Below, one piece after another: positions 9,035-11,814 of a stretch of DNA of 12,050 nucleotides (position 1 is the first letter of the stretch; each line of letters starts with the position of its first letter). Under the pieces are notes generated by a model. It was not told where the DNA came from. It ran no database searches and saw nothing but the letters and a program-made list of their open reading frames with translations. The position numbers and the translations under genes were made by a program. The DNA comes from Bacteroidia bacterium (GTDB taxonomy: Bacteria; Bacteroidota; Bacteroidia; Bacteroidales; Azobacteroidaceae), in the NCBI GenBank assembly GCA_025999935.1, contig BNXY01000060.1:1-12050 (forward strand), written 5' to 3'.

Positions 9035-9066
9035 ATTGTTTTATTAAGCGATAAAGAATATATTTG
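9035..9066 (+). promoter_or_regulatory. Promoter for the NIPSNAP-family gene
   Basis: ATTG (9035-9038), 20 bases, then TATATTTG (9059-9066): one mismatch in the -33 box and an exact TAnnTTTG box at the proper spacing. Transcription should start near 9072, about 33 bases before ATG 9106. Confidence 0.55.
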
Positions 9067-9105
9067 TACTCGAATTTATTTAATTATCTAATACCTAATA
9101 TTTAT

Positions 9106-9879
9106 ATGCAAAGGAGAAATTTTGTCAAAGCTGTTGCAGCATTAGCCGCAATACCCGCAGTTCAGGCGGTTGCCTCTCCGCTTGAACAGAACGCAAAGTC
9201 AAAAAAAGAGATTTATGAATGGCGCATCTATACCTTGAAAGATTCCGGAGCCGATTTTGATGCTTTCCTTGCAGGAACACTTGTTCCGGCATACAACCGC
9301 TTGGGTGTAACCGTAGGCGCTTTCTCGCTTTTCAGGAAAGAAGAAGTTGAGAAGCGGCATATCTTGTTTATTTATAAGGATATTTCCGCTTATCTTCACG
9401 TAAAACACGCCATTTGGGAAGATAAAGTTTTTCGCTCAGCCGCACAAGTTTTCTATGATGCCACAGCGCCTAAACCCGCTTATTCCAATTACGAAGCCTA
9501 TCTCTGTGAGGCTTTCGACAAGATTCCCGTGCACCGCAATCCCGATAAAGACCGTACTCTGCTCGAAATCCGTATTTACCGAAGTCCCAATGAAGAAGCC
9601 AATCAACGAAAAATGCGCATGTTTAATAGCGCTGAAATTGACCTGTTCGACAAAGTAGGCATCAATTCCGTGGCTTATGGCGAAGTTTTTGCTGGGCCGC
9701 GCAATCCGGCAATCATGTATCTAACATGGTACAAGGACGAACCTACGCGCGCCGCCGCATGGAAACGTTTTTCCGACAGCGACGAATGGAAACGCATCAG
9801 CAAACTTCCGGAGTATGCCTATACAGCGACCGACAATACCAGCACTTTTTTGGAGCCGTTGCCGTATTCGCAAATATGA
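9106..9879 (+). CDS. Exported NIPSNAP-family protein with a twin-arginine signal
   Basis: A 257-residue protein. The N-terminus MQRRNFVKAVAALAAIPAVQ has a twin arginine, a hydrophobic core and a likely cleavage site near AVA-SP (about residue 23), suggesting Tat-dependent export. The mature part looks like two ferredoxin-like NIPSNAP units: IYEWRIYTLKDSG onward (about 36-130) and LLEIRIYRSPNEE onward (about 152-255), the second with the family's YLTWYKDEPTRAAAWKRF block and a DEWKR segment. The family resembles small alpha/beta-barrel dimers; its biochemical role in bacteria is not established. ATG 9106 is chosen because the signal peptide starts there; an upstream TTG lies within the promoter box. 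An AAAGGAG sequence just after the ATG encodes the arginines and is not a ribosome site for this start. It is the only rightward gene and visibly richer in G and C than its neighbours. Confidence 0.85.
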   Translation: MQRRNFVKAVAALAAIPAVQAVASPLEQNAKSKKEIYEWRIYTLKDSGADFDAFLAGTLVPAYNRLGVTVGAFSLFRKEEVEKRHILFIYKDISAYLHVKHAIWEDKVFRSAAQVFYDATAPKPAYSNYEAYLCEAFDKIPVHRNPDKDRTLLEIRIYRSPNEEANQRKMRMFNSAEIDLFDKVGINSVAYGEVFAGPRNPAIMYLTWYKDEPTRAAAWKRFSDSDEWKRISKLPEYAYTATDNTSTFLEPLPYSQI

Positions 9880-9910
9880 TTTTTCGTGGAGAAAACCATT
9901 AAATTATTAT

Positions 9911-9941
9911 TTAAAAAAGAAAAGGCTGTCTCACGACAACC
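9911..9941 (-). terminator. Intrinsic terminator of the predicted small RNA
   Basis: Leftward: GGTTGTC (9941-9935), loop GTGA, GACAGCC (9930-9924), then TTTTCTTTTTT. This is a 7-bp stem with one G-U pair, a GNRA tetraloop and a U-rich tail, a textbook Rho-independent terminator. It has no U-tract in the other direction, so it does not serve the convergent NIPSNAP gene. Confidence 0.8.
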
Positions 9942-9981
9942 AATCTTCATTGTTAACCTTAAATCTAATACCATGAAAAAC
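9913..9981 (-). ncRNA. Predicted small RNA of about 70 nt
   Basis: A self-contained leftward unit: an exact TAccTTTG box at 9995-9988, a predicted start near 9981, and an intrinsic terminator ending near 9913. The 5' half can form a second stem, TTTTCAT (9979-9973) with ATGAAGA (9950-9944), holding a 22-base loop that includes the self-complementary GTTAAC (9957-9952). No convincing protein is encoded: a frame from ATG at 9974 is open through the terminator and into unrelated sequence. It could be a trans-acting small RNA or a Bacteroidales RNA family already catalogued (for example in Rfam). Function unknown. A leader of a longer transcript is unlikely because of the terminator and because the next gene on that strand is dinB, beyond the convergent NIPSNAP gene. 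Confidence 0.62.
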
Positions 9982-9987
9982 ACAGTA

Positions 9988-10019
9988 CAAAGGTAATATA
10001 TTTTATGTTATAAAACATA
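9988..10019 (-). promoter_or_regulatory. Promoter of the predicted small RNA
   Basis: Leftward: TATG (10019-10016, one mismatch to TTTG), 20 bases, then TACCTTTG (9995-9988, exact). The inverted repeat TTATGTT-TTAT-AACATAA (10020-10003) covers the -33 box and the spacer next to it and could be an operator. Confidence 0.6.
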
Positions 10020-10031
10020 ACTTTTCAGCAT

Positions 10032-10069: not shown

Positions 10070-11257
10070 TCAATCGACCGAAAGGACTAATCCTTTAATA
10101 TACTCTCCTTCAGGATGATATATGTTTATTGGATGATCGGCGGGTTGTGTCAGTTGATGGAGGATTTTTACGTTTCTTCCCGTCTGCGCTGCCGCACTGA
10201 ACACCGCCAGCCGGAAATCTTCCTTGCTGACCACCTGCGAACAGGAAAAAGTGAAGATAATTCCACCGGGTTTTATCTTTTCAATGGCGGCCGCATTTAA
10301 TTTTTTGTATCCCTGCAAGGCATTTTTTAAGACTTTGCGGTGCTTGGCAAAAGCCGGAGGGTCTAAAATAATCAAATCGTACCGGTCGCCCATTCTTTCC
10401 AAGTAGCGAAAAGCATCGTCCGCAAAGGATTGATGCCGCGGGTCGCCGGGAAAATTCAGCGCGATATTTTCGTCGGTTAGGGCAATGGCTTTGGACGAAC
10501 TATCGACCGAATGGACTAATTTTGCATTTCCTCTCAAGGCATAAGCCGAAAATCCGCCGGTGTAGCAGAACATATTCAGCGCCGTCCGGTCTTTGGCGTA
10601 TTTCTCCAACAAACTCCGATTGTCGCGTTGATCGACAAAAAAACCGGTTTTTTGTCCTTTTACCCAATCCACCCGAAATTGCAAACCGTTTTCTTGTGCA
10701 ATGCCGGAAACGTTTTCTCCGCCAAGCAGATAACCGTTTTCCGCTTCCAAATCGGCTTTGTAAGGAAGCGTTCCTTCCGATTTGTAATATATATTTTCGA
10801 TGGAATCGCCCAAGGTTTCTTTCAGGGCTTCCGCCAATTCATAACGCGCCACGTGCATACCGGGCGAATGTGCCTGCATCACAGCCGTATTGGCATAAAT
10901 ATCCACAATCAGCCCGGACATATTATCGCCTTCTCCGTGAATCAAACGGTAGGTGTTATTTCCCGGTTTATCGGCCAAACCCAATTGTGTACGCATGCGG
11001 TAGGCCGTTTGTAACCGTTTTTTCCAAAAATCTTTGTTGATTTCTTCTTGTTGAAAACTCAATATGCGAACGGCGATAGAGCCGATTTGGCAATGGCCGA
11101 GCGCTATAAAGTTTTTTTGAGAATCATAGATTTCCACAACTTCCCCTTCTTCGGGTCTTCCGTCGATGTGGTGAATGGCTCCTGAAAACACCCATGGATG
11201 AAAGCGTTTCAGGGATTCCTCTTTCTTTGGATTCAGATGGACTTGTTTGTAGAGCAT
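10070..11257 (-). CDS. rlmI: RlmI-like class I SAM-dependent 23S rRNA (cytosine-C5) methyltransferase
   Basis: A cytosolic enzyme expected to methylate C5 of a cytosine in 23S rRNA (position 1962 in E. coli numbering for RlmI). The 395-residue length equals that of E. coli RlmI. Domains in order are an N-terminal PUA RNA-binding domain (about 3-70, with the HPWVFSGAI segment), a linker domain, and a Rossmann methyltransferase domain from about 195. Motifs seen are TGFFVDQR (204-211), SAM-binding motif CYTGGF (231-236), DPPAFAKH (299-306) and the motif FSCS with the predicted catalytic cysteine at 339. I choose ATG 11257, which gives the normal length and places the PUA domain at the very N-terminus; ATG 11281 upstream is possible but would overlap the exonuclease gene more. 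The chosen start overlaps that gene by 25 bases, so the two are co-transcribed. Confidence 0.92.
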   Translation of the reverse strand: MLYKQVHLNPKKEESLKRFHPWVFSGAIHHIDGRPEEGEVVEIYDSQKNFIALGHCQIGSIAVRILSFQQEEINKDFWKKRLQTAYRMRTQLGLADKPGNNTYRLIHGEGDNMSGLIVDIYANTAVMQAHSPGMHVARYELAEALKETLGDSIENIYYKSEGTLPYKADLEAENGYLLGGENVSGIAQENGLQFRVDWVKGQKTGFFVDQRDNRSLLEKYAKDRTALNMFCYTGGFSAYALRGNAKLVHSVDSSSKAIALTDENIALNFPGDPRHQSFADDAFRYLERMGDRYDLIILDPPAFAKHRKVLKNALQGYKKLNAAAIEKIKPGGIIFTFSCSQVVSKEDFRLAVFSAAAQTGRNVKILHQLTQPADHPINIYHPEGEYIKGLVLSVD

Positions 11258-11814
11258 AGTTTTTCGTATATTTTCAGGCATGCCCAAGCATCGAGGGCAG
11301 CATATTTTTTTTGCGCTTCGGATAATGTTTCGGCTTCCCAGTTGCTCAAGCGTTGGCTTTTGGAAATTTTTTTTCGGAAAAGCAGGGCATAGATTTTTTG
11401 CAGGCTGATGTCTTCGATACCGTATCCGGGCGCCAGTTTTTGTAAATCGATAAATCCCTGCGGGGTAAATTGTAACCGCCGGTTCATACTGGTATAGTCA
11501 TCCTGTAAGGAAAGACCGATTTTCAGCATGTCCGGATTCGACAACAACCTTATCAAAGAGGGTGTAAATCCGATTTTATTCAGCCGGAAAAGAAAACAAT
11601 GGTCGTTGGTTGACAATTGAATCAAAGCCACACTATTGAGATTGCCTTTTCTAAAGTTGGGGCGTGTTTCGGTATCAAATCCCATAAACTTAAATTTAGA
11701 TAAATACGCGGTGGCTTTATCCGAGTTTTCGATATTGTCAATGACATGAATACGCCCTTTAAATTCTTCAATATCCAAGGCTGCAATTTCTTCTTTTGTA
11801 ATGCTTCTCCCCAC
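11233..11814 (-). CDS. DEDDy-type 3'-5' exonuclease (RNase D-like)
   Basis: A 193-residue single-domain nuclease with the three exonuclease motifs: Exo I FDTET (Asp47, Glu49), Exo II around LSLQDDYTSM (Asp105/Asp106) and Exo III YAALDAW (Tyr171, Asp175), the tyrosine marking the DEDDy subgroup. It lacks the HRDC domain of full RNase D, so the substrate (structured RNA or DNA ends) is uncertain. The start is GTG 11814, two bases after the upstream stop; no ATG exists before the catalytic motif. The SNWEAETLSEAQKKYAALDA segment is typical of the Bacteroidota version. The neighbouring rRNA methyltransferase suggests RNA processing, but this is only contextual. Confidence 0.92.
   Translation of the reverse strand: MGRSITKEEIAALDIEEFKGRIHVIDNIENSDKATAYLSKFKFMGFDTETRPNFRKGNLNSVALIQLSTNDHCFLFRLNKIGFTPSLIRLLSNPDMLKIGLSLQDDYTSMNRRLQFTPQGFIDLQKLAPGYGIEDISLQKIYALLFRKKISKSQRLSNWEAETLSEAQKKYAALDAWACLKIYEKLCSTNKSI

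Follow-up and report, generated by a model that had tools for sequence, protein, structure and literature searches.

The locus and its genes

The window analyzed here, a stretch of 12,050 nucleotides taken at its full length, carries on its minus strand a match to the Rfam family RF04319 (BTncRNA_FopS) that runs from position 9983 to 9912 and scores 78.1 bits in cmscan, against a gathering score of 56. The match covers model positions 1 to 71 of 71, the full length, with an E value of 1.7e-10 over the window, which is far beyond chance, and nothing else in the window reaches a curated Rfam cut-off. By the family model, then, the RNA is a full-length FopS member of a known, catalogued family. 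The features of the locus are collected in Table 1.

Table 1. Features of the FopS locus in window coordinates
Feature	Position	Strand	Basis
NIPSNAP-domain gene, convergent, outside the unit	9064..9879	(+)	PF07978
FopS small RNA, 72 nt	9912..9983	(-)	cmscan, Rfam RF04319
U-rich tract 3' of the terminator hairpin	9912..9923	(-)	sequence
Rho-independent terminator hairpin, 7 bp, GUGA (GNRA) loop	9924..9941	(-)	folding, terminator scan, covariation
5' seed region, RNA nt 1-31, includes the R1/R1' antisense seed	9953..9983	(-)	FopS consensus match
-7 promoter box TACCTTTG (TAnnTTTG), predicted	9988..9995	(-)	fixed offset upstream of FopS copies
Candidate Cur (BT4338) operator	10001..10022	(.)	match to published Cur consensus, conservation
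rlmI-like 23S rRNA methyltransferase gene, directly upstream, conserved neighbor	10070..11287	(-)	PF10672 and PF17785

The preliminary description had proposed a self-contained small RNA gene of about 70 nt at this place, with its own promoter box and terminator. That proposal held up well: the family model gives 72 nt, the arrangement is conserved at syntenic and at other loci, and the hairpin covaries. The same description had called the RNA possibly uncatalogued or poorly studied and had suggested a search of Rfam. That search returned FopS above the cut-off, and because the match to RF04319 is full length the RNA is catalogued, not new; FopS RNAs have been studied in Bacteroides thetaiotaomicron (PMC11697453).

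The FopS RNA lies 86 nt behind the rlmI-like gene on the same strand. The best NCBIfam match of the rlmI-like protein is NF011707 (RlmI), under the cut-off of that model. No open reading frame of at least 60 amino acids starts and ends between the NIPSNAP gene (end, 9879) and the 3' end of rlmI (10070), in line with the earlier statement that no gene explains this stretch. The nearest named relatives of the RlmI protein are from Candidatus Symbiothrix (80% and 78%), Dysgonamonadaceae (up to 78%), and Candidatus Azobacteroides (76%), which we take to be metagenome-assembled genomes from termite guts. By its RlmI sequence, the host resembles termite-gut Candidatus Symbiothrix.

Anatomy of the RNA

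The letters of the FopS consensus are matched over nt 1 to 31, and in 31 copies chosen among the 74 FopS loci listed, RNA columns 1 to 11 and 13 to 29 are invariant. The 3' part holds the hairpin GGTTGTC-GTGA-GACAGCC followed by TTTTCTTTTT, which are the GNRA-capped 7-bp hairpin and U-tract described before; box, hairpin, and U-tract do stand in the order given for them on one strand, the minus strand. This hairpin is the only terminator-like site between 9800 and 10150, where shuffled sequences had a mean of 0.1. Fifty matches, taken from 45 chosen sources, were aligned by fitting to the model, so that the alignment leans towards its own structure; in it, the terminator pairing was kept in 99.7% of cells, changes on both sides occurred in six of the seven pairs, and the level of covariation was reached by 0 of 500 shuffles. 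The signal was weak on a plain MAFFT alignment, because divergent terminators are misaligned there. The terminator thus varies and covaries while the seed columns of the 5' half stay invariant.

A 7-bp 5' stem (UACUGUG/CAUGGUA) had also been proposed, and this part did not survive. It arises when the fold (9905-9990) takes in bases that precede the family 5' end, the likely transcription start, and it is missing from the centroid of the 72-nt RNA, so that a functional stem in the mature RNA is unsupported; within the 72 nt, nt 5 to 13 are partly, and part of the time, predicted to be paired. The absence of a long 5' stem from the family-length RNA is consistent with a mostly single-stranded 5' seed half.

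Promoter box and upstream palindrome

The TAnnTTTG box, which the preliminary description had picked out, ends four bases before the FopS 5' end. It recurs at one fixed offset in 70 of the 74 FopS loci among the matches listed, and it is present in all 38 distinct rlmI-linked copies. With this box, the RNA has a predicted sigma-ABfr-type promoter of its own. No TTG-like -33 motif was found in the studied FopS promoter.

The most informative upstream element is a palindrome, TTATGTTTTATAACATAA (10003-10020, minus-strand reading), that went unnamed in the preliminary description though it lies at the very edge of the stretch described there. The proposed consensus for Cur (BT4338) is wwwTATGTTnTAnAACATAwww (PMC6989115). 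Its core, TATGTTnTAnAACATA, is matched at 10004-10019 with 0 mismatches, reading TATGTTTTATAACATA upstream of the -7 box on the minus strand (10019-10004), and one flank letter of the full 22-mer differs at the studied site.

Removal of duplicates left 38 distinct promoters from 42 rows of rlmI-linked copies. The motif ATGTT-N4-AACAT, centered about 28 bp upstream of the FopS start, was exact in 33 of these 38, whose sequences are related, so that the figure is not a count of independent events; the full core occurred with 0 mismatches in 25. When these upstream stretches were resampled with a first-order Markov model, the exact motif turned up in 6 of 19,000 cases. The five promoters that lack an exact palindrome are L084 (1 mismatch), L026 (3 mismatches), and L087, L113, and L122 (4 each). 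The arms are invariant by choice of the 33 exact copies, and the center and flanks vary. A role of the palindrome as an RNA hairpin or as the rlmI terminator was considered and rejected: no arm pairs change together, no U-tract follows, and the copies with one mismatch (e.g., L037, L038, and L084) carry single, uncompensated changes.

Among 96 distinct FopS upstream regions, 61 had the palindrome (at most 1 mismatch) together with the box, 32 had the box only, and 3 had no box. A TTG-like -33 motif was found in 2 of the 61 promoters with the palindrome versus 25 of the 32 without it, an exclusion that is due in part to the palindrome taking up the position of the -33 element. Beyond the rlmI-linked copies, the palindrome was exact in 16 of 52 other whole-genome FopS loci among those listed, several of which end at contig ends, so that linkage to rlmI is not always visible. 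It was exact in none of the 12 non-rlmI FopS loci over the cut-off in genomes G092 and G197 (L058 and L060-L070).

Other occurrences of the palindrome

The 3.16 Mb of the host's own genome hold three exact copies of the core: two in FopS promoters and one in the promoter region of a small lipoprotein gene, whose product is PG1828-like, slightly under the cut-off of that family. A copy with one mismatch stands about 95 nt before the start of an EF-G2 (fusA2) gene, which was identified from its first 467 codons. With one mismatch allowed, the core occurs at 5 places in the genome versus about 3 for a reversed control; with three allowed, the window holds 2 matches versus 1.15 expected. Given 5 versus about 3 places, rarity alone proves little; the case rests on position and conservation. 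The 58 relatives have 49 sites with palindrome plus box, of which 33, in 28 genomes, fell exactly at a FopS start, and the reversed control pattern gave 5 matches. The sample of the order gave 107 such sites against 45 reversed-control matches, so outside FopS and a few recurring genes many of the order-sample sites may be chance.

Twenty non-FopS site regions were picked by eye, with plausible spacing preferred. The genes that could be named, also by eye, were the small lipoprotein gene (7 genomes, including the host's own), pyruvate formate-lyase (2 genomes), and, in 1 genome each, glyceraldehyde-3-phosphate dehydrogenase, PEP carboxykinase, and biotin carboxylase. As a group concerned with carbon metabolism, they fit Cur. 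A Cur-type palindrome with TAnnTTTG precedes the small lipoprotein gene at L174 (G000:C4:43485-43520), L225-L228, L231, and L232; the PG1828-like family match was made for the host's own protein only. The small lipoprotein gene is likely a conserved Cur target.

Linkage to rlmI

Among 80 named rlmI loci (666 kb), 26 had a FopS match, and in 20 of them FopS followed the rlmI match at a distance of 87 to 206 nt, in the same orientation; some of the rlmI contigs stop too early to judge linkage (e.g., L075). The arrangement was found in Bacteroides fragilis, B. salyersiae, B. oleiciplenus, a Phocaeicola, and Bacteroidales bacterium AwDysgo. The other six FopS matches were at a distance of 1.4 to 3.8 kb (five loci) or close but on the opposite strand (L125). 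Seen from the RNA, rlmI was the immediate upstream neighbor in 22 of the 74 whole-genome FopS loci among the matches listed, which are the best matches and not all FopS copies. The place of FopS behind rlmI is old.

In B. fragilis the gene order is rlmI, an exonuclease, a DUF5063-like gene, FtsK, a LolA-like gene, TrxB, a hexosaminidase-like gene, and a Crp-type regulator, names that come mostly from reading the sequences by eye. The regulator gene is thus seven genes from rlmI. The rlmI-linked FopS is probably the FopS-14 locus of B. thetaiotaomicron, because the spacing of BT_4331 and BT4338 fits if rlmI is BT_4331. A nupG-like gene stood behind FopS in 7 of 13 loci examined (L088, L091, L093, L096, L097, L098, and L101), confirmed by a family model in L088 and L096, and in those seven the FopS palindrome was the only exact one between rlmI and nupG. 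Because it is the sole exact palindrome there, the Cur site published for nupG may be that of the small RNA.

Distribution of FopS

The host assembly (3.16 Mb, 318 contigs, 81% complete) has 3 FopS copies over the cut-off. One of the others (C52) carries the same palindrome site and does not adjoin rlmI, and no nupG was evident by eye among its neighboring open reading frames. A second, longer FopS type of about 80 nt recurs across the genus at about 50 to 63 bits; its copy in the host genome (L003, G000:C57:4446-4527) is without the palindrome. Of 58 relatives, 40 had a FopS match (36 over the cut-off), as did 67 of 295 genomes in a sample of the order (56 over the cut-off) and 4 of 296 in a sample of the phylum. 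Three of those four were over the cut-off, namely, the host's own genome and two of the same order, and the fourth match, under the cut-off, came from the same class. Searches over 40 genomes used stricter filters, by which weak matches are lost. Within the genomes sampled, FopS is a Bacteroidales RNA.

Some individual loci differ from the common pattern. A reduced 1.2-Mb genome of the same genus (G003), which has no SusC match and has a Cur-like regulator, holds one FopS copy at the cut-off (L276, G003:C5:402925-402996, minus strand, 56.0 bits) with the box TATATTTG and a palindrome with one mismatch; no rlmI was found within 3.1 kb around it. This copy is either a relic or a sign of non-SusC targets. 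L035 (at 937, 1501, and 1783) and L057 (at 331, 568, and 1501) each hold a cluster of three FopS matches that share a strand and span no more than 1.3 kb. The FopS 5' seed also occurs in 24 viral contigs from IMG/VR (L308-L331). The TAnnTTTG box is present in 12 and missing from the other 12, among which are several with quite different terminators; none of the 24 copies has the exact palindrome. These may be phage-encoded FopS mimics. A coupling of the phage copies to tRNAs was dropped: some of these copies follow what looked by eye like tRNA 3' ends, but ARAGORN found no adjoining tRNA in the 12 contigs tested.

Regulator, RRM protein, and SusC targets

The host assembly encodes two cNMP-binding proteins. 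One, a 238-amino-acid open frame on G000:C14, is the only protein found with both cNMP_binding and HTH_Crp_2 domains. Its sequence identity is 64% with a B. fragilis protein encoded at a position that fits BT4338 and 69% with the only cNMP-binding match of the reduced G003 genome. From the 64% identity and the position of the B. fragilis gene, seven genes from rlmI, we infer that the G000:C14 protein is a Cur ortholog. The other cNMP-binding protein (L253, G000:C26:29778-30014, minus strand) is a family 2B encapsulin nanocompartment shell protein. A 1.0-Mb relative (G022) had neither a cNMP-binding match nor a FopS match.

The host genome has a single RRM_1 protein gene, of the class of RbpB, and 53 matches to SusC-type importers, 32 rows of them over the cut-off. 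In B. thetaiotaomicron, FopS-10 pairs near the SusC mRNA start codon and blocks translation, and RbpB relieves the block; the function of the R1' seed is described in the same source (PMC11697453). Pairing of the host's FopS seed (nt 1 to 31) with 28 SusC starts averaged -12.3 kcal/mol versus -12.0 for 45 other starts (P = 0.35), where a simple rule set the start codons and some of the 45 comparison starts belong to SusD-type genes from the same operons. With no excess of SusC pairing, SusC targeting is unsupported in the host genome. For both groups of starts, shuffled seeds gave weaker pairing (means, -9.95 and -10.4) than the real one. Long duplexes of -17 to -20 kcal/mol, the best of many, were found for three SusC starts and one SusD-type start. 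The complement of a 19-nt seed stretch, with at most 3 mismatches, occurs in the 3.16 Mb at two FopS loci and one other place, and the reversed control gave none. That other place (L163) was rejected as an antisense target of the local gene, since the gene is encoded on the opposite strand.

Proposed function and alternatives

The explanation we favor, at a probability of roughly three in four, is that the rlmI-linked FopS of this termite-gut, Candidatus Symbiothrix-like member of the Bacteroidales is activated by Cur under carbon limitation and restrains sugar importers. Under carbon limitation the Cur ortholog would bind the palindrome about 28 bp upstream, where a -33 element would otherwise lie, and would activate FopS, a role that we infer from the operator. 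The 5' seed of the 72-nt RNA would then pair with the start-codon regions of mRNAs for outer-membrane sugar uptake and block their translation, and the RRM protein would counteract the block, as RbpB does for FopS-10. With Cur turning carbohydrate genes on and FopS restraining the importers of absent substrates, the two would form an incoherent feed-forward loop. A broader claim seems to us somewhat better than an even bet: in much of the Bacteroidales, human-gut Bacteroides and termite-gut symbionts included, the rlmI-linked FopS would have belonged directly to the Cur carbon-starvation regulon since ancient times, and Cur would both turn on carbohydrate genes and, by way of FopS, limit the translation of importers.

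Because a center at -28 overlaps the promoter, a bound protein could also repress. Cur would then block RNA polymerase, and FopS would rise when Cur is inactive, with sugar replete; Cur has been reported as both activator and repressor. We consider this unlikely: a TTG-like -33 is absent from 59 of 61 palindrome promoters, as expected where an activator replaces the -33 element, and FopS reportedly acts under substrate limitation (PMC11697453). About equally doubtful is an ordinary FopS gene whose promoter is constitutive or responds to stress and whose palindrome belongs to another regulator or is a conserved feature that Cur does not bind. The TTG-type -33 motif of most palindrome-less FopS promoters agrees with such a promoter, as does the published induction of FopS by bile salts, for which the main text of PMC11697453 names no regulator, and the several other Crp/Fnr-type proteins of Bacteroides genomes could share the site. 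However, the site fits the proposed Cur consensus, of which the fusA2 copy has been tested: fusA2 is the promoter most strongly bound by Cur in B. thetaiotaomicron, and deletion of its site abolished binding there (PMC6989115). In the host assembly, moreover, only one protein combines a cNMP-binding domain with a Crp helix-turn-helix, and the EF-G2 gene is preceded by a near-perfect site.

Two further alternatives concern the transcript itself, and both strike us as improbable. The Cur site might serve a gene beyond FopS, in Bacteroides the nucleoside permease gene nupG, with FopS an attenuated leader. The predicted Cur/Crp regulon does include nupG, along with pflBA and hex (PMC3878776), and the seven loci with a nupG-like gene and a sole exact palindrome agree with this, but in the window the next gene is the convergent NIPSNAP gene, and site, box, and FopS are intact without nupG; the C52 copy, too, has the same site, away from rlmI and with no nupG evident nearby. 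Alternatively, the RNA might be released from the 3' untranslated region of the rlmI mRNA without a promoter of its own, as FopS-14 is classified: that RNA is derived from the 3' end of BT_4331, and its parent band of about 1,400 nt fits an rlmI-plus-FopS mRNA (PMC11697453). Against this stand the TAnnTTTG box of every distinct rlmI-linked copy and the exact upstream palindrome of 33 of them.

Relation to known systems

FopS RNAs, described recently, act posttranscriptionally to hold back glycan uptake in gut Bacteroides; a Cur site conserved on one syntenic copy would join two known regulators of sugar use in the Bacteroidales. If this is true, FopS gains a named regulator, and the "nupG" Cur site of Bacteroides is reassigned to a small RNA. 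FopS also reaches into termite-gut symbionts, although the small RNA itself is ordinary for the order. The main text of PMC11697453 mentions Cur once, as a phenotype comparison, and makes no mention of a palindrome, operator, inverted repeat, rlmI, starvation, or carbon limitation; beyond that comparison, a full-text search found no literature joining FopS and Cur in Bacteroides. The RNA is a new member of a known family, and within the literature searched the Cur link of the rlmI-linked FopS appears to be new.

The RNA shares with the FopS family (RF04319) the 5' seed, a mostly single-stranded 5' half with a terminator, the TAnnTTTG box, several paralogs per genome, and an RRM protein gene in the genome. 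It differs in its host, a termite-gut member of the Bacteroidales apparently outside the Bacteroidaceae of PMC11697453; in its 3 copies per genome, in an assembly about 81% complete, versus 12 to 15 in Bacteroides species (PMC11697453); in its candidate Cur-type operator, which the main text of that study does not mention; and in the pairing test, which leaves SusC targeting unsupported here. FopS-14 of B. thetaiotaomicron is probably the same locus, directly behind rlmI. Unlike an RNA classified as derived from a 3' untranslated region, the copies in the Bacteroides relatives examined carry their own box and palindrome, a comparison that covers relatives other than B. thetaiotaomicron. GibS (RF04182) and BTnc231 (RF04180) share a stretch like the 5' seed, but their scores are 45.9 bits against a cut-off of 115 and 24.9 bits against 80.4, respectively, and their 3' parts align poorly. 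Some starvation-induced small RNAs, namely, BTnc140, BTnc195, and BTnc364, lie near Cur sites (PMC10294740). MasB, likened here by description only, is separately named and has a different reported target, the tetratricopeptide protein BT_1675, but as a Cur-activated small RNA of the Cur regulon it provides a precedent for the regulation proposed here (PMC10994844).
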